DNA from: a virus
IMG/VR virus record: IMGVR_UViG_3300047510_001118
Coordinates: 62,001-126,000 of that record
DNA: 64,000 nt
Strand: one strand, 5' to 3'
This document shows positions 14,057 through 55,019 of the stretch, in pieces. Within the stretch, counting starts at the first letter, position 1. The number at the start of each line of letters is the position of its first letter. Made by a program: the position numbers and the translations under genes. A model generated the notes under the pieces. The model did not search any database, was not told where the DNA came from, and worked only from the letters and a program-made list of their open reading frames with translations.

Positions 14057-14709
14057 TTTAATAGAAATTCCATTACTAGACACAATCGATGGTCGTCACT
14101 CTTGTGTTCTCCAACTGCGTGTGGAAGGTCAACTTTATGTATAACTAGATCTCCGGTTTTAACTGACACAGGAAATATTTCTTCCTTAGGTATGGATCGA
14201 GGATCTATACCCATCTCACAATATCTTCTAGTATTTTTTAAAATTAGTAAATCAGCACTGTTATCCGGTGCTTGTAGATAAAAGATTGCTACGACTTTTT
14301 TAGGTGAATTAGGATCGCTGTCATCGTCGTGCGTATGACAATTACCAAAGGATCCGTTATACATTACATTCATCCAGTTGATAGTTAACTGCGGTTTAGA
14401 TGTCAAATCTAAATCAAAGTGCTCTGCTACGGACTGTACTTTTTCTGATATCCATTCTAACAACATTTCTGAATTTTGAAAATCAAAAAAAGACCTTGCT
14501 GGAGTTTCAAAACTACTCCATACTAATGTTTCTCCGCTGACGCTATTTTTGTCTAGGTTACATGACTGATTATCTCTTATATTTGAATCTTTAAGTTCTT
14601 TTAAGGCAGAATCAATCCAGACTGGTTGTATATGTTTTCCGTCGTCGGCCAAGTTAAACTTGTAAATGTCATAGCCAAATGCTGATATTTTCTCTTTAAA
14701 ATTGTTCAT
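14053..14709 (-). CDS. 2OG-Fe(II) oxygenase-like protein
   Basis: The C-terminal half has the double-stranded beta-helix marks: NCHTHDDD (His-125/His-127/Asp) as the first iron ligand region, then DLVIHKVDLPHAVGEH with His-197 and Arg-208 for 2-oxoglutarate. VAIFYLQAP lies between them as in phage and prolyl-hydroxylase-like families. It would hydroxylate a protein or small molecule using 2OG and O2. It is coupled on both sides by four-base overlaps, so it is an integral member of the unit. Confidence 0.8.
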   Translation of the reverse strand: MNNFKEKISAFGYDIYKFNLADDGKHIQPVWIDSALKELKDSNIRDNQSCNLDKNSVSGETLVWSSFETPARSFFDFQNSEMLLEWISEKVQSVAEHFDLDLTSKPQLTINWMNVMYNGSFGNCHTHDDDSDPNSPKKVVAIFYLQAPDNSADLLILKNTRRYCEMGIDPRSIPKEEIFPVSVKTGDLVIHKVDLPHAVGEHKSDDHRLCLVMEFLLK

Positions 14710-16217
14710 TTGAAACTGTATCCTAGTTTATTATTTTTATAGTTTTCTAAAAATATAGGAAAATTTCTATAGTAAGGACCTAAAGACTTAGCACTTCCCC
14801 TTATTTTTTCTTTTAATGAAATAATTTTTCCATTATCATCTGGTAATATATTTGAAAGATAAAAAGGATCTAACCTTGACAAATCGTGCTGTCCTACTTT
14901 CCAAATATCGAAAAACTCTTTTACCCATTTATGAACTTGAATAACATTTAAATGATCATTTTCCCATGCTATGCTTCCAAAACTGCTGTGCTTAATCATA
15001 TCTTTAAATGCGGCTTTTACTTTTTCATCATCTGTTATATTCATCTCTCTGTAGCCATATTTTTTATAATCTAGTGATAACTCTGATGGCCTAAACTCAT
15101 CTGCTATTCGTTGTATCTCTAATGTATTAGCCATAGCCACTTGATCTGTCCAGTTTTTTCTAAACCAGTCACTTGTTTCATTTAAAGATTCAATAGTCTC
15201 ATACGGCAATCCACCGATCATTGCGATTATAGCACGATATAATCCATTGGATTTTTCTGTAAAGTATTTTTTAACTTCTATTAGTCCTTCTTTTACTTTA
15301 TCCGGATGCATGCCTTTGCCAATGACTTTTCCGCTTGCGTGGTTAAATGTTTCAACACCGTAAAAGTGTCCTAGAAACCCCATACGGATTAAATGATCCC
15401 AATCTTGTCTACGACTAATCAATAAGTCTGCTCTTATATAACCTGTAAAATATGGTTTGAATGGCAATGTTTCAACAACGTCAGCAAATTTAATAATTTT
15501 TTCTGTATGATCATTAAACGTTTCATCTGATACAATATAATTTTCAATTCCAAACTCGTCGTAATTTCTTAATAATTGATTTTTTACACTATCAGCATCT
15601 CTAGTATGATCCTCTTTAACTCCTAAGATAGGATAGTTACAGTACAAACATTTAAATTTACATCCCCTAGTAAACTCAATCATACCCCACTCGCCTGGTT
15701 GAATAAAATCTCGTTTTTCGTAAAAGATTGTTGCGTCTTTAAAAGGATAAGCCGGATACATATGAAGCGCATTAATAATTTTTGTATTGCCTTTAGATCT
15801 AACTACGTCAAATTTGGGTTTTTCGCCGTTACTAAACAAATATTTTAGAAGGGCATCTAAAGCATATTCTCCATACCCGGCAATATGATAATCAAAGTGT
15901 TTCATATCGGGTAGCATAGTTTGACCGCCGGACATTAACACAATATTGGGATATTTTTCTTTAATCCAAACACATAAATCTCGTATCTTATTTTCCGCAT
16001 CGGCATTGTTAAACAAAAAACTAAAACCAAAAAATTTCATGTTTTCGTCAACTCTGCTATCTACTAATTCTTTTAGTTCTTCTAATTCCCAGTAATCAAC
16101 AAAGTCTATAACTTCAACATCCCAGTCTTGTTTTCTAAGGTGAGTAGCGATTCTGTGAGCGCCAGAACTTCTATACATTGTATAATTGTTAACGGTAAAA
16201 AATAAACTTTTGTTCAT
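14706..16217 (-). CDS. B12-binding-domain radical SAM enzyme
   Basis: Residues 1-130 look like a cobalamin-binding-type Rossmann domain (SSGAHRIATHLR, GFSFLF, SGGQT, AGYGEYAL), though the His-loading DxHxxG motif is absent. C186-x3-C190-x2-C193 (RGCKFKCLYC) is the radical SAM cluster site, followed by a SAM barrel. Relatives perform methylations, ring contractions or C-C chemistry. At 503 aa it is the largest of eleven radical SAM proteins here and the first in the downstream half of the unit. Confidence 0.88.
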   Translation of the reverse strand: MNKSLFFTVNNYTMYRSSGAHRIATHLRKQDWDVEVIDFVDYWELEELKELVDSRVDENMKFFGFSFLFNNADAENKIRDLCVWIKEKYPNIVLMSGGQTMLPDMKHFDYHIAGYGEYALDALLKYLFSNGEKPKFDVVRSKGNTKIINALHMYPAYPFKDATIFYEKRDFIQPGEWGMIEFTRGCKFKCLYCNYPILGVKEDHTRDADSVKNQLLRNYDEFGIENYIVSDETFNDHTEKIIKFADVVETLPFKPYFTGYIRADLLISRRQDWDHLIRMGFLGHFYGVETFNHASGKVIGKGMHPDKVKEGLIEVKKYFTEKSNGLYRAIIAMIGGLPYETIESLNETSDWFRKNWTDQVAMANTLEIQRIADEFRPSELSLDYKKYGYREMNITDDEKVKAAFKDMIKHSSFGSIAWENDHLNVIQVHKWVKEFFDIWKVGQHDLSRLDPFYLSNILPDDNGKIISLKEKIRGSAKSLGPYYRNFPIFLENYKNNKLGYSFK

Positions 16218-17125
16218 ATAATGTATCTTAAGTCTTTCTTATCACATAGCTCTATTACAGCACGATCACAATACTTACAGACTTCGTACTGCATACTTAG
16301 AATCTTTTCGTAGTCGCCATCCCATTCTTTGCCTTTGCTGGCTTCTAAGAAGAGATAACAGGGATATACTTTGCCGTTTATGTCTACCTGCTGACTCTTG
16401 TTTTCCCAACTCATACAGTAAGCCTTACCTTTGACAGGACTAGCATATTTGGCCCTAGCAAACTTATCCATGTACATGTAATCATCGATCTTTTTAGGAT
16501 TAGGACGCAGTTTAATTAAGTTTGTTTTGTCCACATAGTTGGCTTCATCTTTCTGTAAGAAAGTCTCAGTCCAATACACATGACTAAACTCACTAACCAT
16601 TTCTTTAAATTTAGGACTGTCAAAGTCCTCCGAGTTGTAGTAGAACCTGATACACTGGGCATAGTCATTTTTACTAGGTCCACGGAAAGCGCGAGCATTT
16701 TCTAATATCCTTTTTAAATTTGTTCCTGTACGATAAATTTCGTGTAGTTCTTGTGTGCTACCGCAGATACTAAAATATACTTTGTCGTTGGCATTCATCA
16801 GTGTGGCTAGCTCTGCCCACCATTCTGGCTTGTGCGTATCTCCGTTAGTACAGATTTCAATCTTTAATCCTCGATCCTTCATGTACTTGACTAAAGGAAA
16901 GAAATATTTGTACATGGTAGGTTCTGATATAGTACCAACAAGACGTATCCATTCTAAATCAGGGAAGGTTTCTAACTGTGCTATAACTTCATCCAAGGGT
17001 CTAACTTTATCTTCGGGATAGTGTTCTTTAAATGCTGTGTAGTTACGATAACACAGGCCGCACTTGGCATTACAGTATGTTGTAAGTTCTAACTCTAGGT
17101 CAATGACCTTAGGCATCTTCAGCAT
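16214..17125 (-). CDS. radical SAM protein, paralogue trio A (1 of 3)
   Basis: Cluster cysteines 18, 22, 25 (CNAKCGLC). It shares with the next two genes a long set of landmarks: R-x-L-D near 40, SEPTMYK, TNG(D/N)T then EWW, CGSTQE(L/I)H and R(F/Y)-x-YN. After the barrel it has a Cys-containing C-terminal domain (CYLF, CKYCDR) that may hold auxiliary clusters. Substrate unknown. ATG 17116 is an alternative start. Tandem duplication is the simplest origin. Confidence 0.88.
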   Translation of the reverse strand: MLKMPKVIDLELELTTYCNAKCGLCYRNYTAFKEHYPEDKVRPLDEVIAQLETFPDLEWIRLVGTISEPTMYKYFFPLVKYMKDRGLKIEICTNGDTHKPEWWAELATLMNANDKVYFSICGSTQELHEIYRTGTNLKRILENARAFRGPSKNDYAQCIRFYYNSEDFDSPKFKEMVSEFSHVYWTETFLQKDEANYVDKTNLIKLRPNPKKIDDYMYMDKFARAKYASPVKGKAYCMSWENKSQQVDINGKVYPCYLFLEASKGKEWDGDYEKILSMQYEVCKYCDRAVIELCDKKDLRYII

Positions 17126-18048
17126 ACAAAGTCCAATCCCATTTTATCAATAAAGGTACGTGTGCGCTTCTCACATAGGAAACAATCTGGAAACTTAAAG
17201 GATAGGATATCACCGTAGTCCATGTCATCCTTGTCTGCTGGAAAGTAGTCTTGCTCGTTCTCAGCGTGAGTATAGCAGGCACTGACCTGTCCCCATTGAT
17301 TGATATAAATCTTTTTAGATTGCATACTACGACATTGTATGGTATATTGTTTTCCATCATTAGGCTCTGGGCGATTCTTAAACAACAACTTGATAGTTTG
17401 CTCCCGGGTCTTAACTGGACGAATGCCTAGTTCCACTTCTTTATTGTAGACGTTTACTCTACGCACACCTTCTGTTTCAACTTTCATTACACGACTAAAT
17501 TGATCAAAGATTGCTTTCATCGCAGGGCTTTCTCTATCCTCAGCATTGTACTCAAATCGTATATGTTGTATCCAATCGTTCTTGCGACCATTTTTACGAA
17601 AAGCAGCCGCATTATCTAATATTTGTTGTAGGTCACTGCCCACACGATACTTGGCATGTATTTCCTGTGTACTTCCGCAAACAGTAAAACAACACATACA
17701 CTTTTCAGGTACGATACTGCCTAACTGTTCCCACCATTCAGTATCGCGTGTATTGCCGTTGGTAAAGATTTCATAATAGATGTCACGACTGTTTAGGTAT
17801 TCAATAAACTTAATAAAGTCTTTGTACATTGTAGGTTCACTGACTACACCCGCAACAAAGAAACGTTTAAGTCCCGTGTATTGATCTAATTGTTTAATAA
17901 TAGTATCAATGTCACGTACATTCTTTTCTACTAGATGATTTGCGTGTTGATAGTTACGAGTACATAGTGGGCAGGAAAGGTTACAGACTCCTGTTAAGTC
18001 CATTTCCATTTCTTCCACTTCACTCTTTTTCATCGTAACCTGCGTCAT
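17119..18048 (-). CDS. radical SAM protein, paralogue trio A (2 of 3)
   Basis: Cluster cysteines 22, 26, 29 (CNLSCPLC) in a 309-aa protein. It keeps VSEPTMYKDF, NGNT plus EWWEQLG, VCGSTQEIH and DWIQHIRFEYN as in its neighbours. The C-terminal part has CYTH and FLCEKR cysteines suited to an auxiliary iron-sulfur domain. Start overlaps the previous stop by four bases. Confidence 0.88.
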   Translation of the reverse strand: MTQVTMKKSEVEEMEMDLTGVCNLSCPLCTRNYQHANHLVEKNVRDIDTIIKQLDQYTGLKRFFVAGVVSEPTMYKDFIKFIEYLNSRDIYYEIFTNGNTRDTEWWEQLGSIVPEKCMCCFTVCGSTQEIHAKYRVGSDLQQILDNAAAFRKNGRKNDWIQHIRFEYNAEDRESPAMKAIFDQFSRVMKVETEGVRRVNVYNKEVELGIRPVKTREQTIKLLFKNRPEPNDGKQYTIQCRSMQSKKIYINQWGQVSACYTHAENEQDYFPADKDDMDYGDILSFKFPDCFLCEKRTRTFIDKMGLDFVC

Positions 18049-18962
18049 CCCATTCGCTCCATACCATTACTTTCTAACATTGTCTTAGTCATGCTTTCGC
18101 ATTCGTAGCAGTAACGATTATTAAATTCAAATATATCGCTGTAGTCGTTGTGATCAAACGTCCTATTGTCATATATTCTATGTAGGAAGCAAGGATGCTC
18201 TCCTCCAAAATTATCAACAAACAAAAATTTTAATTCAAAACTCTTACATTTCATTGAACACTTAGTTCCGCTGTCATATCGTTTAAGGACAGCATTACGA
18301 ATTACATTGTATTTTTCACCCAACTTGCCGGCCATCTTTATATCGTTGTTAGGATCTTTAATTATATTAAACCGTTCTTGATAAGGAGCAGACTCGCAGA
18401 CATACAAATGATTAAATTCTTTAATAATCTTTTTCATGTCATCTGATTCTAGATTATCTTTGTTGTATTCAAAACGGATCAACTGTATCCAGTCGCTGGT
18501 ACATCCCGATTTACGAAATGCTTCAGCATGTCTTAACACTTGTTCTAAACTAGAATTGACACGATATTTTTCGTGTAACTCTTGTGTTGTGCCACAGACT
18601 GTAAACAGCACACGGTCTCTATCTTTAACTAGAGTTCCTAGTTCTTCCCACCACTCTTCTTTGTGTGTGTTAGCATTAGTGTATAGATCAAAACAAATGT
18701 TTCTAGAATTGAGGTATTTTATTAACTCTAAGAATTCTTTGTACATTGTAGGTTCACTGACTGCTCCACTTAGACAAGTGTATTTTAAATTTGGAAAACT
18801 ATCTAGGTGAGCAATCCATTCCTCTAAAGGACGGATGTGCTTGACATTAAGATGTTTAGCATTTTCATAACTTCTAGAACAAAGTGGGCAATCAAGATTA
18901 CAAGTACCCGTAAGCTCAAGTTCCAATTCTAGTATTTCTTCGCGTTTTAATCCAATAGTCAT
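18045..18962 (-). CDS. radical SAM protein, paralogue trio A (3 of 3)
   Basis: Cluster cysteines 21, 25, 28 (CNLDCPLC). AVSEPTMYKEF, TNANTHKEEWW, VCGTTQELH and DWIQLIRFEYN match the other two copies nearly word for word, so divergence after duplication is recent enough to see by eye. C-terminal CFLH and YCYECES supply further cysteines. Different C-terminal halves suggest different substrates for one shared chemistry. Confidence 0.88.
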   Translation of the reverse strand: MTIGLKREEILELELELTGTCNLDCPLCSRSYENAKHLNVKHIRPLEEWIAHLDSFPNLKYTCLSGAVSEPTMYKEFLELIKYLNSRNICFDLYTNANTHKEEWWEELGTLVKDRDRVLFTVCGTTQELHEKYRVNSSLEQVLRHAEAFRKSGCTSDWIQLIRFEYNKDNLESDDMKKIIKEFNHLYVCESAPYQERFNIIKDPNNDIKMAGKLGEKYNVIRNAVLKRYDSGTKCSMKCKSFELKFLFVDNFGGEHPCFLHRIYDNRTFDHNDYSDIFEFNNRYCYECESMTKTMLESNGMERMG

Positions 18963-19573
18963 AGGTATATTATACTGTCAAAGTCTTTCTCTTTAAACAC
19001 TCTCATTTTTGATTCTTCGCTCATTCTGTTATGGTGTTTGGCCAGCATGGCGTGTTTTAATTTGGTAGATAGTATTACTCCATTAATACCTTCTGGATTA
19101 GTAGCCGCAACAAGATGGAACTGTATCTGTGGGTATTTATTGAGGAACGCTTCTAGATTTTTAAAATTGTTATCTGTTACTATTAATAGATACTGTAAAT
19201 TTAATTCTGAATCAATTATTATATCGTCCTCCGGATCTAAGTTCTCGCTACAGTGATATAGGACAGTATCAAAACGAGGCAACAGATCACGATAGCGTTT
19301 GATAAACAGTCCGTTAGTGTTGATGCTAGGACGGCAACCTTTCTTCTCTAGTTCGTCTAGGATGTATTCAATGTCTTTGCGTTTCATACTACCCACTTCA
19401 CCGCCACTGAGTGTTACATTATATCCAGGAATAACTTTATCTAACTTGGCTTTTACTTCATCCATGGTCAGTGTAGGACGATTGTGTGTATCAACACAGC
19501 AATAGTCACAGTGCCAGTTACATACCCATGTAACAACTAATTCAATTTCTCGTTCTTGTGCGTGAATTGCCAT
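18959..19573 (-). CDS. short radical SAM protein, paralogue trio B (1 of 3)
   Basis: I start at ATG 19573, which overlaps the upstream stop as TAATG, giving 204 aa. CNWHCDYC (18, 22, 25) binds the cluster; DTHNRP, SGGEVGS, NTNGLFIKR and YHCSENL are shared with the next two genes. QueE-like in size but with the normal CX3CX2C spacing. No C-terminal auxiliary domain. Confidence 0.87.
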   Translation of the reverse strand: MAIHAQEREIELVVTWVCNWHCDYCCVDTHNRPTLTMDEVKAKLDKVIPGYNVTLSGGEVGSMKRKDIEYILDELEKKGCRPSINTNGLFIKRYRDLLPRFDTVLYHCSENLDPEDDIIIDSELNLQYLLIVTDNNFKNLEAFLNKYPQIQFHLVAATNPEGINGVILSTKLKHAMLAKHHNRMSEESKMRVFKEKDFDSIIYL

Positions 19574-20151
19574 TAGTGCCACCTTGCCACAACTGTGATG
19601 AATTCTTGTAATGATCCTGGATGTACTTTATCTCCGTGTTCATTAAAGAAGTCCATCATTAAGTTTAAGTTAATCTTCTTTTGACTACGCACATCTGGTA
19701 ACAACAGAAACTTAATGTGCGGATAACGTCTAATCATTTCATGTATGCTTCCATCTAAGAAGTTTGTGTTTGTAACTACAAGTCCGTAGGCTACATGATC
19801 TAACTGTAAGTCCGGAAACTCTATGTCGTCGGGCAAGTATTCAACACAATGATAATGTATCTTACCAAACTCGTGTACCAACGGCATATGACGTTTAAAG
19901 AACAGTCCGTTGGTTAATAAATCAATTACACAGTCTTTATTTTTCAAGATGCCAATTATTTCTTCTAACTGTTCACGCTTTAACAGTCCAGGTTCACCAC
20001 CACCAAAGGTAACTTCTGTGCCTGGTTCGATGGCATGTACTCTACGCAGAACTTCTTCGTAAGGCAACTCTGGACGATTGTGTGTGTCTGCTACACAATA
20101 GTCACAGTGCCAATTACACTTATAAGTTAAAGGAAGTTCTATTTCTTTCAT
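19573..20151 (-). CDS. short radical SAM protein, paralogue trio B (2 of 3)
   Basis: 192 aa, the smallest radical SAM protein here. CNWHCDYC at 12-19, DTHNRPELP, GGGEPGLL (SAM-binding GGE), LTNGLFFKRH and YHCVEYL align with both neighbours. It must be close to the minimum for a SAM barrel. Coupled by four-base overlap to the upstream copy. Confidence 0.87.
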   Translation of the reverse strand: MKEIELPLTYKCNWHCDYCVADTHNRPELPYEEVLRRVHAIEPGTEVTFGGGEPGLLKREQLEEIIGILKNKDCVIDLLTNGLFFKRHMPLVHEFGKIHYHCVEYLPDDIEFPDLQLDHVAYGLVVTNTNFLDGSIHEMIRRYPHIKFLLLPDVRSQKKINLNLMMDFFNEHGDKVHPGSLQEFITVVARWH

Positions 20152-20816
20152 CTCAGTGCTTTTAATTTCCGTATATCATTTACTTCTCTACAGGTCGTAA
20201 TCAAATGTATGTAACTGTTTGGATCAATACGATCTTTAAATTCTTGATACACTTTAAATCCGTTTGTTCTACTAAGTCCTTTGCCAATAACGTTATCTGC
20301 GCCAAATACTAAAAATTTAATATCTGGATACTTGTTGATATAGTATTCTAATCTATTCATAGTATCATCGGTGATTACTAATTGGAAGTCTATCCTAGAC
20401 TGTTCAACATAATTTGGAATCCATATTTCATCGTCATCCAGGTGCTCACTACAGTGATATAAAAAACTATCAGGTATATGGCAAAGGTTACGATGCTTTT
20501 TAAAAAATGTACCATTGGTGTTTACATTTATGAAACAGCCCTTGTCTTTCAATGTAGTCAGTAGCCAAAGCATTACTTCTTTGTTTAATGTTCCGGGCTC
20601 ACCGCCTGTAATGGCCACATCTGCTCCCTGAGGTATCTTATCTACTTTCTCTTTTAATTGCTCAATCGTTATATCTTTTCTATTATGTGTATCTTCACTA
20701 CAGTAATCGCAGAACCAATTACATTTGTAAGTCACATAGAGAGTATAGGAATTGGCTCCGTCTAGGCCTCCTTGAAAGAACTCGTAGTTTTCGTGTAGAT
20801 TATTCCCAGCAATCAT
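20148..20816 (-). CDS. short radical SAM protein, paralogue trio B (3 of 3)
   Basis: I use ATG 20816 (222 aa); a longer frame to 20903 would overlap the SDR gene by 104 bases. CNWFCDYC at 32-39, EDTHNRKD, TGGEPGTL, NTNGTFFKKH and YHCSEHL match trio B. A 30-residue N-terminal extension (FFQGGLDGANSY) is unique to this copy and could be a substrate or partner site. Confidence 0.86.
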   Translation of the reverse strand: MIAGNNLHENYEFFQGGLDGANSYTLYVTYKCNWFCDYCSEDTHNRKDITIEQLKEKVDKIPQGADVAITGGEPGTLNKEVMLWLLTTLKDKGCFINVNTNGTFFKKHRNLCHIPDSFLYHCSEHLDDDEIWIPNYVEQSRIDFQLVITDDTMNRLEYYINKYPDIKFLVFGADNVIGKGLSRTNGFKVYQEFKDRIDPNSYIHLITTCREVNDIRKLKALR

Positions 20817-21432
20817 ATACTCTTCCGTTCTGTGTATCGCCAAATATGTGTTCGTAAACTGTGTTAAATTGTCTGTGATACTTTTCTTTGTCTTCATAGT
20901 CAAACATAGGACTCACTGAACTAACATTTACACCTTTGTCGTTATGTTCAGCCAAGGCTAACATTAACTGATGTTGATAGGCTTTGCCGCCATAATATCC
21001 TAACTTGTCTAAACCAAAACTACGTTCTCTATCGTAAATTACATCAGTGGTCATGAACACAATTTTAGATTGACTGTTCATTTTCTTTAATGCTTCTATG
21101 GATAACGTGTGTGGTATAATTGTCTGTACATAAAATCCCTGTATGTATAACTTTTCTTTTATTATTCCTTTGCTGGTAAAAGAGTCAGGTTCATTGGGAT
21201 ATCCTTTATAAGCAGAGTTGTATAATAAAATATCAATTGTATCTAAGTCCTCTGTTACGGTATTAAATTTAACAACCGCATCTTCCGCAGTTAAGAATGT
21301 TAAAGTCGCATCAGTATCGTTGCCAGTCCTATGAGATAGTACACGAACAGCATGTCCGTTGGACTTTGCTTGGCGAACAAAGTCGTTACCAAATTGTCCA
21401 AACCTACTGCCGCCGACTACAACAATATTCAT
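20800..21432 (-). CDS. short-chain dehydrogenase/reductase-like protein
   Basis: N-terminal VVVGGSRFGQFGNDF is a Rossmann beta-alpha-beta start; LLYNSAYKG resembles the NAG region and YYGGKAYQ gives the YxxxK catalytic pair, with a TTD before it. 210 aa is short for the family. It lies within the radical SAM run and likely oxidises or reduces an intermediate of the same pathway. Confidence 0.72.
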   Translation of the reverse strand: MNIVVVGGSRFGQFGNDFVRQAKSNGHAVRVLSHRTGNDTDATLTFLTAEDAVVKFNTVTEDLDTIDILLYNSAYKGYPNEPDSFTSKGIIKEKLYIQGFYVQTIIPHTLSIEALKKMNSQSKIVFMTTDVIYDRERSFGLDKLGYYGGKAYQHQLMLALAEHNDKGVNVSSVSPMFDYEDKEKYHRQFNTVYEHIFGDTQNGRVYDCWE

Positions 21433-22454
21433 TTGTAGTATCCTTGTCTATAGAAGTTTACCTGATCAATCTTTTCGCCAGGTTCGGGTCTCAGTGTTAC
21501 ATTCTTAATCTGTTTCTCTACACCGTCACAGATATAGTAATGCTTACAGTTTAAACAGTCTTTGGTTTTATAATAAGTTCTATTGCGTTTGAATGCCGCC
21601 GCATCATACAGAGCCTTGTGTGGGTCCGCACGATACACCTGTGGATCTATGTCACCATTGTACACAGCAATATTCCAATCGTAGATGTCATAGATATGTT
21701 GATAGTAATTACAGACATACTGCTCATAGCCCTTCATAAAACAATAGGGCGTGTATCGAACATTGATCTTCTCTACAATATCTTTAAGTAAGTCTATGGC
21801 CTGATGTACATAGGGAGTAACTTCAGCATAGTCTATGGTTTCCTGTGCGCCAGCATCGTCCCAATAGTTCAGTGTTAGGAAGTTTACTTCAAATGGTTTG
21901 AGTTCTTTGACTAGCTCAACAAACTTAGTAGGCAAGCTCTTATAATTCTTATGTGTGACTGTACAGTTAACTCTAACCAACACTCCTAGTTCGTGTGCGT
22001 TTTTAATTGCCTGTACAATGTTCTCAAAGCCTTTGCGATGTCCTACTAGGATGTTGTGGCTTTCTTTATCATAGCCGTGTACTGAGAACAGTATTTCTTC
22101 TAAGCCGTGCTCTTTGCTTTTACGTAAGAACTCTTTGTCGGCAAACTTGTAGCCGTTGCTCAGTGTGCTGACCTTTAGTCCTTTACTCTTACAGTAGTCC
22201 AGTATGTCAAACCATTGCTTGTGTATACTACTTTCTCCGCCACTGAGATCTGCTTCTTTGATGCCGCAGGCTACAAGATAGTCTATTCGTTGTCGTATGG
22301 CATCGAACTCAGTTACATCATTTAACTGTGTTTTGTAATAGCAGAATTCGCAACGATAGTTACAGTGAGTGCCAGTGTCTAACTTGGCACGTTCACAGAT
22401 TGGTTCGTCACGGTCTATCTGTAACTTGTTGCTGAGTTCGTTGTAAAGTCTCAC
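21429..22454 (-). CDS. radical SAM protein with SPASM-like end (341 aa)
   Basis: CNYRCEFC at 31-38, LSGGESSIHK for SAM binding, TLSNGYKF, and LFSVHGYDKESHN. The C-terminal KDCLNCKHYYICDGV matches the CxxC-x5-CxG ending of SPASM/twitch domains, which hold auxiliary clusters and often act on peptides. Its start overlaps the upstream gene by 47 bases. Confidence 0.87.
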   Translation of the reverse strand: MRLYNELSNKLQIDRDEPICERAKLDTGTHCNYRCEFCYYKTQLNDVTEFDAIRQRIDYLVACGIKEADLSGGESSIHKQWFDILDYCKSKGLKVSTLSNGYKFADKEFLRKSKEHGLEEILFSVHGYDKESHNILVGHRKGFENIVQAIKNAHELGVLVRVNCTVTHKNYKSLPTKFVELVKELKPFEVNFLTLNYWDDAGAQETIDYAEVTPYVHQAIDLLKDIVEKINVRYTPYCFMKGYEQYVCNYYQHIYDIYDWNIAVYNGDIDPQVYRADPHKALYDAAAFKRNRTYYKTKDCLNCKHYYICDGVEKQIKNVTLRPEPGEKIDQVNFYRQGYYK

Positions 22455-23271
22455 GTTCTATCTCTTGGTATTGTTGATCAACTGGCACAGGATTGATCAT
22501 ATATTTCTTTTTACTTTCGGCCATTAGTTTAAAACTGCTGATGCTTTCCTTGTAACAGGTTCTACTAAAACTACTACAGTGTTTGACACAGATGCTTTGA
22601 CTGTCAAAAAACTTGTAGCGTATTGGATCTGTCAGTGCGTCTTTTAATGATGTATTGTGTAAGTTAGCAAAGGCTACCCTATCGTTAGGTGGTGTGTTGT
22701 CTTTGACAAACTTACAGAATACTACATCGCCATTGGCCATAATCTTAGGCATACTATGGAAGTGGCATTTGAGTTTAGGATCAAACTCTTCTGTTATCTT
22801 TGTGCCTGTGTAGTTAAACTCGTAACCATAATCTCTACGCTCTAGTTTATATTGTATGCCGTTAGCATCTAATTCTTCTAAACGTTTATGTACAATATCA
22901 AATAGATTCTTATCCATTGCTGTTAGTTCTTTGAAACGAGCAGGAGTATCTCCGTAGTAACTGACACAGAGTTTAATATTGTTCATAGGAACTTCTGCCA
23001 ACTTACGTACATTAACTGCGGTAACATTAGTAAACACAATGGTATACTTCATATGTTCGTTGAGGAACGCTAACATTTCATAGATGTCAGGATGTAAGAA
23101 TGGCTCTCCCTTTGCGGGGATAAGATCTATTTCAGTAATGCCCATTTCCTTTGCTTCAAGTATTATTCGTTTGAACAAGTCCAACGGCATATACTTTGGT
23201 TCAGTAATGTCTTTGGCTTTACAAAAATAACACTTGAAGTTACAGTACTCTAGGATCTCTACAACAATCAT
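22408..23271 (-). CDS. radical SAM protein with SPASM-like end (287 aa)
   Basis: The cluster site is very close to the N-terminus (CNFKCYFC, 10-17). PAKGEPFLHPD replaces the GGEP motif, and VFCKF ... CVKHCSSFSRTC gives a SPASM-type cysteine set near 235-250. The last 30 residues are charged and extend beyond the fold. Substrate unknown. Confidence 0.86.
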   Translation of the reverse strand: MIVVEILEYCNFKCYFCKAKDITEPKYMPLDLFKRIILEAKEMGITEIDLIPAKGEPFLHPDIYEMLAFLNEHMKYTIVFTNVTAVNVRKLAEVPMNNIKLCVSYYGDTPARFKELTAMDKNLFDIVHKRLEELDANGIQYKLERRDYGYEFNYTGTKITEEFDPKLKCHFHSMPKIMANGDVVFCKFVKDNTPPNDRVAFANLHNTSLKDALTDPIRYKFFDSQSICVKHCSSFSRTCYKESISSFKLMAESKKKYMINPVPVDQQYQEIERETLQRTQQQVTDRP

Positions 23272-24164
23272 ATTATACCTTTAAGTATGTTCACAAGGTC
23301 GTCACTGGGTCTTAGACACAGACTATCAAAGTCGTTTTCTATATCCCAGTTGCGCCAGTACAATCCGCGATCCTCGTCCCAATAATCGATATTGTGGAAA
23401 ATTACGGATTTACCGTAATATTTACATTCTGCTATGAACCTGGGACTACAATCCCATTTACGCTTAACTGGAGTATAGACGTAAGTGCCAAACTGTTCAA
23501 ACAAGTCGTTCACAGGAGGAATTACAAAAGTAAATCCATTTATAGATTTAGGCATATTCTCTTTGTTTGTTATAACTAGGATGTCATTGCCGTACTGCGT
23601 TAGTTCTTCATAGGAGTCTAACTGTCTACAGTTCTTAGTAGCATAGACCAACACTGAATCCTTACTAGGACCCAGTGTTTTTAATCTATCAAATAGAATC
23701 TTCTTTTTATAATTGACACCGTTTTTCTTTACAAGTTCGTAGACGCGATTGTCTTGTAAGATCCATACATTATCTTTGTCGTTGTCTTTGATTTCTTTAT
23801 TGCCGCAGGCAAAGTAAAAGATGTTATCAAATAACAGTGTCACCGGCCGCATATTAACTATGCCGCCGTCTGTGAATATTATGTTGCGTCCCTTGACCAA
23901 TGTAGGTCTATTGGCAAACACTGTGTTAGATTTGATATCCTCTATCTCTTCGTCTGTGAAATTGTATTTGCCACGGATACTGGATTCAAACGTTGGCCAG
24001 TCAATGTCTTCGCAGAGCAGTACTCCAACTTTGAAATCATTTCTTAGAGTAAAGTAATAATCTATAACTTCATAGGTGTGTCCACAGATGCCATGATTGT
24101 TATTGCTCCAAGAGTAACTAAGCCAAAGATCATAGGAGTCGTCTAACTGTGTTATCTTAGACAT
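23268..24164 (-). CDS. possible GT-B-like glycosyltransferase (298 aa)
   Basis: Alternating hydrophobic strands and the C-terminal CSPRFIAECKYYGKSVIFH recall the nucleotide-sugar site of GT-B transferases (PRxxxEAxxxG). No DxD. Together with the next upstream gene, which overlaps it by 13 bases, it could form the two halves of a transferase. This is a weak call; the genes are real but the activity is inferred. Confidence 0.5.
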   Translation of the reverse strand: MSKITQLDDSYDLWLSYSWSNNNHGICGHTYEVIDYYFTLRNDFKVGVLLCEDIDWPTFESSIRGKYNFTDEEIEDIKSNTVFANRPTLVKGRNIIFTDGGIVNMRPVTLLFDNIFYFACGNKEIKDNDKDNVWILQDNRVYELVKKNGVNYKKKILFDRLKTLGPSKDSVLVYATKNCRQLDSYEELTQYGNDILVITNKENMPKSINGFTFVIPPVNDLFEQFGTYVYTPVKRKWDCSPRFIAECKYYGKSVIFHNIDYWDEDRGLYWRNWDIENDFDSLCLRPSDDLVNILKGII

Positions 24165-24940
24165 GCTCGCACCATAGGACAGTTTTCTGTGAGAGTATAG
24201 TTACCTAGTCCGTTGACAACTATATCGTTGTAGCGTAATTGTATCGAGTCAGTGTTGAGATTGTAGGGTTCTTCTACAGTCACAGTCTTACCATAAAAGA
24301 ATCCTTCTGGTATGATCCTGTTGTTGGTATCTCTGACTACATGGATGTAATGAACAGCATCAATTTGATCAAATAGATCTCCAATGCCTGTATGTTGTTT
24401 TTTTAATAAGATAGGACGATTGAATTGTGTCTTTAATCTTTCATATTCATAGCGTATGTACTTTGGATCAAGACAACTGACAAATACGCCAGATTGACTC
24501 TTACAGGGTCTGAATATTTCAAAGTTTAATTTTAAGATACATTCTACATCGTAGCGTTGATATGGATACAATCCATAGTAGGTAACTGTGCGATTATTCT
24601 TATAACGAAACATCTCGTGTGTGTCATTGCTGAAACAATGTATTTCGTTGGTTAAGAATTCTTTACAGTCATAGAAAGTGTTTACATCGAGGATGAGTGT
24701 ACGATCAAGATTGAGTTTATATAACTCAACTAAGGTAACTGGAATTATGTTGTCAACTACAGTGTCGTATTTTGCCGTAAGGATTTCAACGACTAGTTCT
24801 AGATCCTTTGCGTCTATACCAACAATATAAAACTTTGCGTCAACATACTTTCTTAGAAATTTAAAGTATTCGAAACAGTAAAACAATGTTCCGTTGATCT
24901 TATTGTGTGGTTTAAACTTGTATACAACACCATAGTTCAT
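24152..24940 (-). CDS. phage protein, possibly a glycosyltransferase partner (262 aa)
   Basis: Aromatic-rich alpha/beta protein with LILDVNTFYDCKEFL in the middle and NGLGNYTLTENC near the end. No firm motif. The order and overlap with the GT-B-like gene suggest joint function. Start ATG 24940 lies three bases after the upstream stop. Confidence 0.6.
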   Translation of the reverse strand: MNYGVVYKFKPHNKINGTLFYCFEYFKFLRKYVDAKFYIVGIDAKDLELVVEILTAKYDTVVDNIIPVTLVELYKLNLDRTLILDVNTFYDCKEFLTNEIHCFSNDTHEMFRYKNNRTVTYYGLYPYQRYDVECILKLNFEIFRPCKSQSGVFVSCLDPKYIRYEYERLKTQFNRPILLKKQHTGIGDLFDQIDAVHYIHVVRDTNNRIIPEGFFYGKTVTVEEPYNLNTDSIQLRYNDIVVNGLGNYTLTENCPMVRACLR

Positions 24941-24942
24941 TA

Positions 24943-25560
24943 TCAGAAGTTTGCGTAGAATCGCTCTAAGAATCGCTCTTCTATGGCTTTGATTTCTTCA
25001 ACTGTGGTAGCCGCACGTATTTCATTTCTAAATGCCGTGAACTTACGTTCTAAGTGTGCCACTGCTTCAATTTCGTCTTTGTAGTTGAGATAATCTTCTA
25101 ACTTGGCGATTAGTTTTTCGTCGCCAGTTTCTAAAATTTCTAGATACTTTTCTTCACGATTTTCATTAGTGATAAAATATCCGTTGGCGGCCATGTCGTT
25201 GTTTAATACAATAAATCCGTACATGGCAAAGCCGCTGATCTTAGATAGTTCTGGAGTTACCAGCATACGTATTTTGACTACAGACGCATCTCTGGCTTCT
25301 TGAATTGGATCTGTTTCTTTTAGATCAATGACATCAAACTCTCCAGGTAATACTTCTCCTGTCTGTAGAGTCTTGTGGATGTGTACTCGCTTGCCTTCCA
25401 TCAGTGCCTGTTTGATCAACTGATGGCTCATGTAAGAAAGACGCAGAATCTTTTCGTCTTTGTCTGCTTGATTATCTAGTGTGTTTTGAGTTACGTTTGT
25501 TACAAACCAATGTGTGCCACGGTCTTGTACTGTGGCTAAATCATATATGATGCTACTCAT
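24943..25560 (-). CDS. phage protein of unknown function, next to fibre-like protein (205 aa)
   Basis: An acidic, helical C-terminal half (residues 135-205) suggests a coiled coil; the N-terminal half is mixed alpha/beta with SKISGFAMYGFIVLNNDM. It starts two bases after the fibre-like gene's stop. A chaperone or assembly partner for the fibre would fit the position, but nothing in the sequence proves it. Confidence 0.75.
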   Translation of the reverse strand: MSSIIYDLATVQDRGTHWFVTNVTQNTLDNQADKDEKILRLSYMSHQLIKQALMEGKRVHIHKTLQTGEVLPGEFDVIDLKETDPIQEARDASVVKIRMLVTPELSKISGFAMYGFIVLNNDMAANGYFITNENREEKYLEILETGDEKLIAKLEDYLNYKDEIEAVAHLERKFTAFRNEIRAATTVEEIKAIEERFLERFYANF

Positions 25561-25561
25561 C

Positions 25562-26350
25562 TTATTCCTTTACTGTTGTTGGTTCGCTCCAAAGTTCTCC
25601 GTTGTTAGGTAGTCTGTCGTAGTGTACTCTAAAGAACCCTTGCTCATCGATTTCAACAGCATGAGAGTATTCGCTTTGTAATATCTCTCCAGCCATAACA
25701 CCGATATACTTTGTTTCAGGATCCCATGTATAAGTGTAACTGTAGATATTAATTCCTTCACGTGTGCCAAGGAATTTGATGTTTTGTTTTAGACGCTCGT
25801 CACTGTAGTTACAGCCGCAGTCTCTGTGGCAGTTACATACAGCATTACAGGTACAGTCTGAGTTACAAATACAATCTTGACGCATGATGTTGTATTTGTC
25901 ACGTAGAGCAATCCAGTGACTGTCGTCAATTAGTGCGCCTGAGCTATAACTATTGGCAGGAGTCGTAGCATCTGCCGGGTTAGTATACACAGCCGCGGTG
26001 CTACCTACAGGCTCAGTAACGTTATTTGTCTGTTGAACCATTAATTCTAAATCGTTAATCTGTGCGGCGGAAATAACAGTGCTAGTGCCGAACGCACTAG
26101 TTTGGCGATTAGCAACACCGCTGAAATGATTAACTGTTCCGCTGTTAGTTGTATGTGTTTTATAGCGGTCTAATTCTGCATTTATTTTACTACGTAAATC
26201 TTCGATATCAGCCGCAGTAACACGACCTGTGGTTACAGCAAATTCTGTACTAGATGACAATGGTCTGTTTGTAGAGCAGGCTCCACGATGATTTGAACAG
26301 GTTGTTGTTCCTGAACTATTTAAATTACAAAATGTTCCGCTACAAGCCAT
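25562..26350 (-). CDS. fibre-like protein with (CxCxxx)4 stretch and S74 chaperone
   Basis: Three parts are visible. Residues 1-30 have Cys-3, 8, 18 and 25. Residues 35-155 are a Thr/Ser/Asn-rich body. Residues 160-180 hold eight cysteines in a strict hexad, C-x-C-x3 four times (160/162, 166/168, 172/174, 178/180). Directly after comes SDERLKQNI (183-191), the start of an intramolecular chaperone/peptidase S74 domain, whose Ser and Lys cut the chain just before it. After self-cleavage the cysteine hexads would be the new C-terminus of a trimeric fibre. The gene is flanked by a SPASM radical SAM gene one base upstream. Metal binding, disulfides or thioether modification are all possible; none is shown. 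Confidence 0.85.
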   Translation of the reverse strand: MACSGTFCNLNSSGTTTCSNHRGACSTNRPLSSSTEFAVTTGRVTAADIEDLRSKINAELDRYKTHTTNSGTVNHFSGVANRQTSAFGTSTVISAAQINDLELMVQQTNNVTEPVGSTAAVYTNPADATTPANSYSSGALIDDSHWIALRDKYNIMRQDCICNSDCTCNAVCNCHRDCGCNYSDERLKQNIKFLGTREGINIYSYTYTWDPETKYIGVMAGEILQSEYSHAVEIDEQGFFRVHYDRLPNNGELWSEPTTVKE

Positions 26351-26351
26351 T

Positions 26352-27524
26352 TTAATATATTTCCTCTTGTTTGATTTCCTCGGGCTTTTTGGCTAGTTCT
26401 TTGTCTAGATAAGCCTGAACTGTGCGATCGATTTCCCCAAATGCTTTGTAGAAACCGCACATGTTATTTACCCAACGATCAGTCCAACGATCAAAGTAAT
26501 CTTCTTTCTTGCTGTTATCTAAGCTCGAAACAGGGCAAATCATACAGGTTGTGGCCACACAGCCCTTACAGATATCGCTGACTTCACGTGCTTTTGGCTG
26601 ATAAGTTGTGGCCATTTTAATAACTTTATCGATAAAATCAGCATCATCGATATTGCCGCCCGATGCCATTTGCTCTTTATTTGGACTATATAACGAACCG
26701 TGGCAAGCGTAACTGTTACCATCTACGTTGATAGCATGCATTGATGCTCCGCTTTGGCAATGACTCTTAGCATCCCCACCGTCAAACCAAGTACACAAAT
26801 GATGTCCGTATTTTTTAACAAACGCAATCTCTTCCTTGGCAATCATCAACATCTCTTTGCGGAAGTCTGCTACCATATCCGGCATTTTATCTATAGGAAG
26901 ATCTGTTACGTAGTCAATCGTAGGTGCGTACTCAACGCGGCAGTTAGGGCCAATGTCTTTGAATCTCTCATACAATGTTTTATAATCTTGCCAAGCATTG
27001 TAGATACCTCTCATTGTTGATAGGGGAACTGTGGCCTTTAGGCTTAGGTTAACACCCTTGCGAGCAAAGTATTCAAAGTTCTCAATAACCTGTGCTGATG
27101 TAGGTTTACCGCTGTGTGTTAATCGGAACTTGTCGTTGATGTTCTTACCATCGTAACTAAACTGAATGTTTAGTTTTTTAATATTGATATTATCTAATAC
27201 ATGTTCTAAACGTTTACGATTGTAACCGTTGGTATAGATATGGAATCCAATGTTTTCAATGTGTTGGAATTCCTTCATAATATCAATAATTAGATCTCCA
27301 TTAAGGGTTGGCTCACCGCCCCAAAAGTCGATCATCAGTTCATCATAGTTCTCTTTGAACCAAGCACTTTCGTAGAACTCTCTGATACGTACTTTTAAAA
27401 TATCTACTTTATCGTCGAGTCGGCGTGTATCTGTCTTTACACCTTCGAAGCAATATGAGCAACCTAGATTACACAGTGCTGTGGTTGTAACTTCTAGTGT
27501 AAATGATCCTTTTGATACTTTCAT
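26352..27524 (-). CDS. SPASM radical SAM protein, anSME-like (390 aa)
   Basis: CNLGCSYC at 18-25, DFWGGEPTLN for SAM, QFSYDG, and a C-terminal cysteine set (CHGS; CKGCVATTCMICPV; MCGFYKAF) that fits two auxiliary clusters of the SPASM type seen in sulfatase-maturating enzymes and RiPP maturases. Such enzymes oxidise Cys/Ser side chains or form thioether links in proteins. It sits immediately upstream of the cysteine-hexad fibre gene, so that protein is the obvious candidate substrate. The link is inferred from adjacency only. Confidence 0.88.
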   Translation of the reverse strand: MKVSKGSFTLEVTTTALCNLGCSYCFEGVKTDTRRLDDKVDILKVRIREFYESAWFKENYDELMIDFWGGEPTLNGDLIIDIMKEFQHIENIGFHIYTNGYNRKRLEHVLDNINIKKLNIQFSYDGKNINDKFRLTHSGKPTSAQVIENFEYFARKGVNLSLKATVPLSTMRGIYNAWQDYKTLYERFKDIGPNCRVEYAPTIDYVTDLPIDKMPDMVADFRKEMLMIAKEEIAFVKKYGHHLCTWFDGGDAKSHCQSGASMHAINVDGNSYACHGSLYSPNKEQMASGGNIDDADFIDKVIKMATTYQPKAREVSDICKGCVATTCMICPVSSLDNSKKEDYFDRWTDRWVNNMCGFYKAFGEIDRTVQAYLDKELAKKPEEIKQEEIY

Positions 27525-27751
27525 TTGATATCCTCAATGTTTAATATTTCGTCTAAGACTGACATCATTGTTTCCTCGCTGACCTTTTCTGGTTCTTCTT
27601 GGATGATGCCTAGCATATCTTCAGCAAGTTTGGCTAGATATTCTGCTTCCTCTTGAAACAGTTCTTCGTTGGACAAATGCTTGCTGGCTTCTAATAAGTG
27701 GAAGCTCGCATTGTATAGTGCCCTATTCATTTTCTTAATACTCGTAGCCAT
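27521..27751 (-). CDS. small helical protein between two SPASM genes (76 aa)
   Basis: Almost wholly alpha-helical and acidic toward the end, without cysteines. ATG 27751 has a GGAA ribosome site inside the upstream gene; Met-8 (27730) is an alternative that avoids the 17-base overlap. Small proteins between RiPP maturases are sometimes recognition or escort proteins, but no RRE-like fold can be claimed here. Confidence 0.72.
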   Translation of the reverse strand: MATSIKKMNRALYNASFHLLEASKHLSNEELFQEEAEYLAKLAEDMLGIIQEEPEKVSEETMMSVLDEILNIEDIK

Positions 27752-28760
27752 CTTCGTATTCCTTTTCCATTTCTTCTTTAACGACTTGTTTAAAATCTGG
27801 GTTATTTTTTAGGGCCGCTGTCATGCGTTTAACTTCTCTATACGTATATTTATAGATATCGCAGAGCTCGACTATAGGACCTTGGTTTTTAATCTGCTCA
27901 AATAAACAGCCCTTTTTACAGTAATTCTTAACTTCACAGGTCTGACAAACGGGCATTTGGGCATATTTGGGTATAGCCGCTATCATGTCCGGACTGTCTT
28001 TAAAACGTGTACAGGGCACAACTTTGTTTTCGCTGAACATAAACATATTTGTACCAGCACCGCAGTTATCCGTAGTAACACCTTTGCTGTGATAATCCAA
28101 AAAGTGTCTTAGATAGAACAGCACAAAGTAAGGCATGCCCTGTTCTGGATTGGCAATATACCAGTCAAACATCTCAGTAATGCCTACTTTGAGTTTATCA
28201 ACGCTGTCCTGATCCCAAGTACCTACGTCACGTACCAGTGTAAGTTCTGGGTTAAATCCAAAGTGCTCTTTGATCCATAGATGATTTTCCAATAAGTTAT
28301 AACAGCCTTTGGTTATCATGCTGTGGCAACTGACTTCGGGTAACTTCTTAAACAGTTCTCGCTTTTCAAAGAAACGTTGTTTAGTTCCTTTGCCGTTTAA
28401 CTGTAGTCTATTCTTATCCTGCCATAGTCCATCAAAACTGATAGAAACTTCTATGTTGTTTCTAACTAGGAAGTCTACAGTTTCTTCTGTAAGCAGTAAT
28501 CCATTTGTAGGCATGAATAGTTTGATGTTGCCATCATCACGCACACCTTCTAGTATCTCTTCTATCAAATCTATCTGTAGCAAGGGCTCGCCACCAAAGA
28601 AGTCTATCTTAATTGTTTCATCTGGATATTGCTCACGCATCTTACGGAACTCAGCCAAATACAACACAGGGTCAATACGATTCTTAGACCACTTGTCTAC
28701 TCCGCAATATGAGCAGTTAAGATTACATTTTTCGGATAGAACAACTAATAATGTCTTCAC
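27735..28760 (-). CDS. SPASM radical SAM protein (341 aa)
   Basis: CNLNCSYC at 12-19, DFFGGEPLLQ, MPTNGLLL, SISFDG and a C-terminal CQTCEVKNYCKKGCLFE that matches a SPASM cluster site. Related to the anSME-like neighbour but with a shorter C-terminus. Overlaps the dehydrogenase stop by four bases. Likely a peptide or protein modifier. Confidence 0.88.
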   Translation of the reverse strand: MKTLLVVLSEKCNLNCSYCGVDKWSKNRIDPVLYLAEFRKMREQYPDETIKIDFFGGEPLLQIDLIEEILEGVRDDGNIKLFMPTNGLLLTEETVDFLVRNNIEVSISFDGLWQDKNRLQLNGKGTKQRFFEKRELFKKLPEVSCHSMITKGCYNLLENHLWIKEHFGFNPELTLVRDVGTWDQDSVDKLKVGITEMFDWYIANPEQGMPYFVLFYLRHFLDYHSKGVTTDNCGAGTNMFMFSENKVVPCTRFKDSPDMIAAIPKYAQMPVCQTCEVKNYCKKGCLFEQIKNQGPIVELCDIYKYTYREVKRMTAALKNNPDFKQVVKEEMEKEYEDGYEY

Positions 28761-29528: not shown

Positions 29529-29559
29529 CTCTTTTAACATATTTGTGGAATATTTATTG

Positions 29560-29567
29560 GTTAAATA
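29560..29567 (+). promoter_or_regulatory. late promoter-like box GTTAAATA
   Basis: Ends seven bases before ATG 29575. A TATACT-like string also lies in the gap, so an alternative -10 reading exists. Confidence 0.4.
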
Positions 29568-29574
29568 CTATACT

Positions 29575-30777
29575 ATGATTAACAAAGATCCCTTCAAAAA
29601 ACTAATCCAAGACATGAAAGACAACGGCAAATACCGTGTCTTCAACGACATTGTACGCGAAAACGGCAAGTTCCCACAGGCAATATGGTACGGCCCGTAC
29701 AATATTAAAAACATCATCAATTGGTGTTCAAACGACTATCTAGGCATGGGACAGCATAAAGTTGTTCTTGATGCCATGCACACCGCTCTTGACCATACAG
29801 GATCGGGATCAGGCGGTACTCGTAACATTGGCGGTACCAGTCACTATCACGTTGCTCTAGAGCGTGAACTAGCCAGTCTACATAATAAGACAGGCGCACT
29901 GTTATTCAGCAGTGCCTATGTGGCTAACGAATGGACTTTAATTGCCCTATCGAAGATCATAGACAATATAGAATTCATATCAGATGCCAATAATCATAAC
30001 AGTCTTATTATTGGTATGAGTCACAGTCGTGCGCCCAAACAGGTATTCAAACACAACGACCTAGCAGACTTAGAAAACAAATTAGCCAACAGTAAACTCA
30101 GTGGACGCACTCCTTGTATTGTATTCGAAAGTGTTTACAGTATGGACGGAGATGTGGGATTGATTGAGGAAATCTGTGATCTAGCAGATAGATATCATGC
30201 CATTACATATATTGATGAAGTACACGCTGTGGGACTATATGGTGACGAAGGCGCAGGTAAATTAGAAGAGTTGGGCTTACAGGATCGTGTTGACATAGTT
30301 AACGGTACACTTGGTAAAGCATTTGGTACACAAGGTGGGTACATTGCCGCAGACAAAACAGTGGTAGATGCTATTCGTAGTGTGGCTGCTGGCTTTATCT
30401 TTACAACGAGTATGAGTCCAGTTACCTGTGCTGGAGCCTTGGCCGCAGTAAAATATCTACGTGAACATCAAGACGTTCGCGATCAACATCAACGACAGGC
30501 TCGTAAACTCAAAGAAGAATTAAAGAAAGCAGACTTGCCAGTAATGGACTGTTCAACTACACACATTGTTCCTGTGCTTGTTGGTGATGCTAAACGTTGT
30601 AAGGCAATGAGTGATAAACTGTTAGAACAGTTTAATATCTATGTACAGCCTATTAACTATCCAACTGTAGATGTGGGAACGGAGCGGTTACGTTTCGCAC
30701 CTACTCCGTTTCATGATGATGGAATGATTGAGGATCTAGTTAATGCGTTGAAAGTTGTGTTTAAAGAAAATTATTAA
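29575..30777 (+). CDS. hemA: 5-aminolevulinate synthase
   Basis: A full-length (400 aa) alpha-oxoamine synthase. ALAS rather than KBL or BioF is indicated by [51 protein letters not shown] and GTLGKAFG with the PLP lysine at 248, the same number as in Rhodobacter ALAS. It condenses glycine and succinyl-CoA to 5-aminolevulinate, the first step of tetrapyrrole synthesis by the C4 route used in alphaproteobacteria. As an auxiliary metabolic gene it would raise heme supply during infection. I prefer ATG 29575 to GTG 29545 because the latter lies within the promoter box region. Isolated on the plus strand. Confidence 0.93.
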
Positions 30778-54748: not shown

Positions 54749-54869
54749 CGAGTTTCTGTACAGTCTTTTAATGATATTCACTATGTACTTTATGGTCATT
54801 TAGTCATATAATACTGATACATACTAATGCAATACCTAGTATGTTTTATCAACACAAAGGAGTATTATT
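54749..54869. other. short gap before pqqA
   Basis: TATAAT at 54807-54812 without a good -35 (TGTACT at 54785), then AACACAAAGGAG. Probable middle or weak promoter. Confidence 0.5.
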
Positions 54870-54941
54870 ATGTGGACCAAACCAACTGCAACTGAAATGC
54901 GTTACGGTTTTGAAGTAACCATGTACATCATGAACAGATAA
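54870..54941 (+). CDS. pqqA: PqqA, PQQ precursor peptide (23 aa)
   Basis: 23 residues, MWTKPTATEMRYGFEVTMYI plus MNR, the same length and frame as Klebsiella PqqA, with the Glu-15 and Tyr-19 (E-V-T-M-Y) that PqqE joins by a C-C bond to make pyrroloquinoline quinone. MW-K-P, R-x-G and the N-R end also fit. AAGGAG lies seven bases before ATG and a terminator follows, so it is a stand-alone expressed gene. No PqqB, C, D or E is in the window; host enzymes would have to process the peptide. Confidence 0.85.
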   Translation: MWTKPTATEMRYGFEVTMYIMNR

Positions 54942-54965
54942 TCTCTGTCACTGTGTATAAGGAAC

Positions 54966-54989
54966 AGCCCACATAATAGTGGGCTTTTT
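54966..54989 (+). terminator. rho-independent terminator after pqqA
   Basis: AGCCCAC, ATAATA loop, GTGGGCT, then five T. Confidence 0.83.
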
Positions 54990-55019
54990 CTTGGCTAAAA
55001 ATTTGTTTTTGACCGCTAC

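Follow-up and report, generated by a model that had tools for sequence, protein, structure and literature searches.

Does a 72-base reading frame in a large virus genome encode PqqA, the 23-residue peptide precursor of the redox cofactor PQQ in methanol-using Methylophilaceae, and what could a phage do with the substrate of a pathway alone? The frame lies in the window analysed here, a stretch of 64,000 bases (positions 62001-126000 of a 278,126-base virus record) whose own numbering is used throughout. The record (G000) contains a terminase, indicating a genuine phage genome, and the window matches a DnaB-like helicase, a primase, a DNA polymerase and a virion protein. The nearest helicases, at ~50% identity, are those of PA5oct-like Pseudomonas jumbo phages. 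These matches, together with relatives of the gene in isolated phages, agree with the phage location assumed in an earlier reading of the window. The 278-kb phage is large and of the lytic type, and the type of its peptide and the operator described below suggest that its host is probably a Methylophilaceae methylotroph.

The pqqA unit of the 278-kb phage

The predicted peptide scores above the cut-offs of both PqqA families, Pfam PF08042 (E=1.8e-8, 34.6 bits versus 21.1) and the NCBIfam equivalog TIGR02107 (E=8.1e-9, 35.1 bits versus 20), which bears out the identity proposed by the sequence-only reading. It contains E-V-T-x-Y, with Glu and Tyr four residues apart at positions 15 and 19, as that reading had noted. 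We take E15 and Y19 to be the crosslinked residues of known PqqA peptides, and the window peptide would accordingly be a predicted substrate for crosslinking by PqqE/PqqD and conversion to PQQ. Its residues 6, 12, 20 and 23 are not those of the commonest host peptide, and no exact bacterial copy was found in the bacterial set compared. The features of the locus are as follows.

54769-54783, plus strand: 15-bp palindrome TAATGATATTCACTA of the host PQQ-regulon type, putative activator operator (16.7 bits with a position weight matrix, PWM, from bacterial pqqA upstream regions only)
54807-54812, plus strand: -10 box TATAAT, identified by sequence; the operator centre is 31 bp upstream of its start
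54856-54862, plus strand: ribosome binding site AAAGGAG, identified by sequence; 7 nt spacing to the ATG
54870-54941, plus strand: pqqA, stop included, with an ATG start; encodes the 23-aa PQQ precursor peptide MWTKPTATEMRYGFEVTMYIMNR with E15 and Y19
54966-54991, plus strand: intrinsic terminator AGCCCAC-ATAATA-GTGGGCT-TTTTCTT, a 7-bp stem (54966-54985) and a T tract

As judged from these elements, operator, -10 box, ribosome binding site, pqqA and terminator together make up a self-contained unit with one gene. The strong ribosome site and the gene's own terminator had both been recognised earlier; the hairpin begins 24 bases past the pqqA stop, and a near-identical stem occurs in two viral relatives (L004, L084). 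The unit had been delimited as 54870-54989, which correctly takes in the gene and the terminator but leaves out the palindrome and the -10 box upstream, at 54769-54812. Assuming the usual 12 bp from the start of the -10 box, as for all start sites given here, transcription of pqqA would begin near 54819. A simple sigma-70 scan missed this promoter, which has no -35 consensus, as is expected of an activator-dependent promoter. The 78-bp leader was considered as a general phage early promoter, but it occurs once in the window and so belongs to pqqA. A riboswitch or other RNA element was also rejected, as tRNAs alone reach the gathering threshold and no match lies near pqqA.

Adjacency to pqqBCDE is usual for pqqA but not defining, and orphan copies occur in hosts. 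The usual neighbours are missing here: the 278-kb record, searched whole for PqqE, PqqC and PQQ dehydrogenases, contains no PqqE above the family cut-off and no PqqC, and tblastn with host proteins gave no match to pqqB or pqqC in the window. The same holds for related loci, consistent with the earlier proposal that a phage supplies the peptide alone. In profile searches PqqE exceeded its cut-off in none of 44 viral records and PqqC was found in none of 31 (the TIGR02111 search ran without a positive control; its outcome is supported by tblastn using the PqqB and PqqC proteins of hosts). Across 0.96 Mb of viral loci and the window itself, tblastn with host PqqB, PqqC, MxaF and MxaJ gave no match; in host loci, searched as a positive control, there were 23 PqqB and 18 PqqC matches. 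Many of the viral records are fragments, for which gene absence covers the neighbourhood of pqqA.

A single phage cluster on the minus strand of the window (14706-28760) contains nine or more radical SAM genes, including one type that binds B12 and SPASM types resembling PapB/sulfatase maturases, adjoined by PseB-, PseC- and epimerase-like sugar genes. The cluster may represent an unusual surface-sugar or peptide-modifying pathway. Its genes were considered as a phage PqqE and rejected: the best score to TIGR02109 is 41.7 bits against a cut-off of 381, and generic radical SAM proteins in all control genomes also give a signal. A 5-aminolevulinate synthase is encoded at 29545-30777 on the plus strand (TIGR01821, 568.9 bits versus a cut-off of 338.6), as the sequence-only reading had remarked.

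Occurrence of pqqA in phages and selection on the peptide

A tblastn search of phage genomes with the 23 residues, a check suggested by that reading, returned 12 phage records, 10 of them genuine, with peptide identities of 74-83%. The ten are Venkman, ctXG6705, MEP301, P19250A, four Melnitz variants, MEP401 and MEP402, and nine are phages of Methylophilales or Methylophilaceae. The gene had been expected to escape gene callers, and pqqA is annotated in none of the ten: the position is either left blank or assigned to a hypothetical gene with no name, which lay on the opposite strand in both cases inspected. The six Methylophilales isolates (Venkman, MEP301, P19250A, Melnitz, MEP401 and MEP402) encode a clear PqqA, as the window does, and four of the six have the operator; they differ from the window phage in being smaller and in having pqqA unannotated or under an opposite-strand hypothetical gene. 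Two matches titled Acinetobacter phage MD-2021a were set aside. The one inspected (CAKLQF020000010.1, L291) encodes ppk, pqqB and pqqC, and is a piece of bacterial chromosome in a phage collection.

A strict DNA pattern identified at least 120 pqqA contigs in IMG/VR, making 121 viral genes with that of the window. Among the matches listed, all 121 encode exactly 23 residues and all have Y19; the pattern required neither this length nor Y19, whereas E15 was fixed by it. Among the matches listed, a Shine-Dalgarno sequence precedes all 120 viral genes, and 52 of the 120 have a terminator within 110 nt; random pieces drawn from these contigs predict 1.8. Other PqqA types occur, mostly without the operator, in the viral contigs L003, L009, L012, L015, L042, L060, L063 and L073, which are possibly phages of other PQQ-making bacteria. 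Phage pqqA is far commoner than has been described.

The viral genes are under purifying selection similar to that in hosts. Over the codons left free by the viral search pattern, 107 distinct viral sequences (among the matches listed) give a pN/pS of 0.245 and 110 bacterial ones give 0.242; the bacterial set came from a stricter pattern, so the two values are similar but the comparison is inexact. Synonymous divergence among the viral genes is large (pS 0.72), and viral peptides closely resemble those of hosts, to the point of identity in some cases.

The sequence-only reading knew of no described phage case, but one had been published. According to the available text of that report, the T4-like Lake Baikal contig VP_266, assigned to Methylophilaceae, carries PqqA and methanol dehydrogenase, and its PqqA was proposed to aid methanol oxidation (PMC7678222). 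VP_266 and the window share a phage-encoded PqqA and Methylophilaceae hosts, the latter predicted in the case of the window. They differ in that the VP_266 gene occurs with a phage methanol dehydrogenase, whereas the PQQ-alcohol dehydrogenase TIGR03075 was found in none of 44 viral records, and in that the available text describes no regulatory site for VP_266, whereas the window pqqA has a palindrome. We rejected a methanol dehydrogenase like that of the Baikal phages for the 278-kb phage, as its record also lacks PF13360. Viral pqqA is among the genes in a 2026 reservoir paper (PMC13188868), and in the paper on Melnitz PQQ appears solely as an addition to the growth medium (PMC9004378).

A palindrome shared with host pqq and mxa genes

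Side-by-side comparison of upstream regions revealed a recurring palindrome. We trained a 15-bp palindromic PWM only on 126 bacterial pqqA upstream regions (TMATGA-WWW-TCATKA, 17.8 bits), from a starting consensus drawn by inspection of the viral and bacterial sets. Sites of at least 8 bits occur in 80 of 114 viral pqqA upstream regions among the matches listed (70%, versus 1.0% of random pieces from the same contigs) and in 90% of bacterial ones (control, 1.1%). When near-duplicate upstream regions are removed, 51 of 71 viral ones keep the site (among the matches listed). The site tracks the type of peptide, being present at 74 of 92 viral genes of the Methylophilaceae type versus 8 of 26 of other types, among the matches listed. 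Five of the seven distinct phages from annotated collections have it (Venkman, ctXG6705, MEP301, P19250A and Melnitz), and the PWM scan did not find it in MEP401 or MEP402. In the 278-kb record the window site TAATGATATTCACTA is the sole exact match to the pattern TMATGAWWWTCAYTA. The window leader resembles host leaders only at the palindrome, so it did not arise simply by recent copying of an entire host promoter.

Among the matches listed from a scan of 84,980 species genomes, the peptide motif T-E-M-R-F/Y-G-F-E-V-T-M-Y belongs mostly to Methylophilaceae, and all 100 Methylophilaceae genomes studied have pqqA, in 1-12 copies. PqqA of this family (PF08042, TIGR02107) resembles that of the window in its 23 residues, E15/Y19, motif and upstream palindrome, and orphan host copies resemble it in lying away from pqqBCDE. 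In six Methylophilaceae genomes the exact site occurs 3-6 times per genome among the matches listed, and 20 of the 23 such sites precede pqqA copies, pqqB operons, or mxaJ just after mxaF. The palindrome is thus a candidate mark of a host regulon comprising pqqA copies, the pqqB operon and mxaJ. Two of the remaining three sites are Fur-box-like, one of them at fecI/fecR-like genes of a Methylophilus genome (L267). A Methylophilus locus with no recognised pqq or mxa gene nearby also carries an exact palindrome, TAATGAAAATCATTA (L268, positions 1026-1040). Loci with the 15-bp palindrome in Methylophilaceae are L246-L263, L269, L273 and L279.

The position of the site is also regular. In most host promoters with a callable -10 box, the palindrome centre lies 53 bp from the -10 start, and hosts have a weak partial tandem site exactly 23 bp downstream of the palindrome. 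Phage spacings cluster at 30-31 bp and again at 52-54 bp. The window gene thus differs from Methylophilaceae pqqA in its location in a phage and in an operator placed 31 bp rather than 53 bp before the -10 box, which is the phage mode. With the usual 12 bp to the start site, spacings of 53 and 31 bp would place the centres near -65 and -42. These are class I and class II activator positions, and they are 23 bp apart, about two helical turns. Such a fixed spacing to the -10 box is activator-like, and makes the palindrome a putative activator-binding site. No description of this operator was found in the literature searched, which was mainly open-access, with a 2015 Methylovorus pqqA study outside it. 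The new element is the operator with its geometry; the phage PqqA peptide was already known.

Proposed role of the phage peptide

One PqqA is consumed per PQQ molecule. We propose, with a probability of roughly 0.75, that the phage contributes an extra substrate gene to the host PQQ regulon and that host PqqB-E would do the chemistry. This proposal builds on what was established here, namely peptide identity, selection, the absence of other pathway genes in the searched records, and the operator with its spacing; from these we infer host identity, activator binding, expression, a gain in PQQ and a benefit to the phage. During infection, the host activator of pqqA, pqqBCDE and mxaJ would also turn on the phage pqqA. 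The phage peptide would be crosslinked by host PqqE/PqqD and completed by host PqqB and PqqC, and PQQ might continue to reach PQQ-dependent methanol dehydrogenase at a stage when host genes are being silenced or degraded. As for phage AMGs, the gene is in a genuine phage genome and shows selection at the protein level (pN/pS 0.245, n=107, among the matches listed), and a changed host metabolism during infection would be the predicted outcome.

Literature on PQQ production makes it plausible, by analogy, that a phage pqqA raises PQQ. In a Gluconobacter oxydans extract, added PqqA was converted to PQQ at 70-80%, as cited in the available text of PMC9851590, and as PqqA is used once per PQQ, peptide supply alone can work. 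The same text describes a methylotroph with multiple, separately located pqqA copies, one of which is among the two most expressed (PMC9851590). The peptide is not always the bottleneck, given that in Acetobacter pqqAB raised PQQ by 29% and the whole cluster eightfold (PMC7936290).

The sequence-only reading had offered as an alternative that the peptide is a decoy, binding PqqD/PqqE and blocking host PQQ synthesis. A lone substrate analogue without pathway enzymes could indeed compete, but a decoy would need neither the operator nor both crosslink residues. The gene bears the site that co-regulates the host genes, E15 (fixed by the pattern) and Y19 (free) are invariant in the 121 viral genes among the matches listed, and the viral peptide is close to the host's, sometimes identical, with a similar pN/pS. 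We consider a decoy very improbable. Orphan pqqA units are abundant in hosts with their 1-12 copies, which makes capture easy, and operator and gene could arrive as one piece; the unit might then be a recently acquired passenger with no fitness effect. But pqqA occurs in a number of phages that are not related to each other (Venkman, MEP301, P19250A, Melnitz and the 278-kb phage), a pS of 0.72 goes with strong protein constraint, and the operator spacing of 30-31 bp is typical of phages. These features point instead to long retention under selection, making a passenger quite unlikely.

The upstream dyad itself might be a Fur box responding to iron, or a repressor site, in which case the unit would be controlled by iron or a repressor and stand outside the PQQ regulon. 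In its AT version, TAATGATTATCATTA, the dyad is similar to the Fur core, and, as noted, such a site lies upstream of fecI/fecR-like genes in Methylophilus (L267). Host pqq and mxa sites, however, are mostly TCATGA-WWW-TCATGA and stand before pqqA, pqqB and mxaJ, and many pqqA sites have the fixed 53 bp to the -10 box and the partial tandem site 23 bp downstream, a geometry of activators; we regard this explanation as unlikely. The earlier observation of a phage pqqA is therefore confirmed, and its interpretation partly supported. Extending our proposal of an added substrate gene to the wider set of phages, we consider it reasonably probable, if less so than the proposal itself, that a portable unit of one gene, plugged into the host PQQ/methanol regulon, is found in unrelated Methylophilaceae phages, often with the phage-typical class II spacing. 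Such a unit would drive only the consumable substrate, and the host regulator would decide when.

If this is correct, phages would boost a cofactor through its consumable peptide alone, under transcription control borrowed from the host. Taking over metabolism in this way would cost little, and the methanol oxidisers concerned are abundant in the sea and in fresh water. The gene would have been overlooked because it is 72 bases long. The isolates Venkman, MEP301, P19250A and Melnitz are tractable phages bearing both pqqA and the operator, and the operator DNA TCATGAAAATCATGA offers a testable handle on a Methylophilaceae regulator of PQQ and methanol oxidation.
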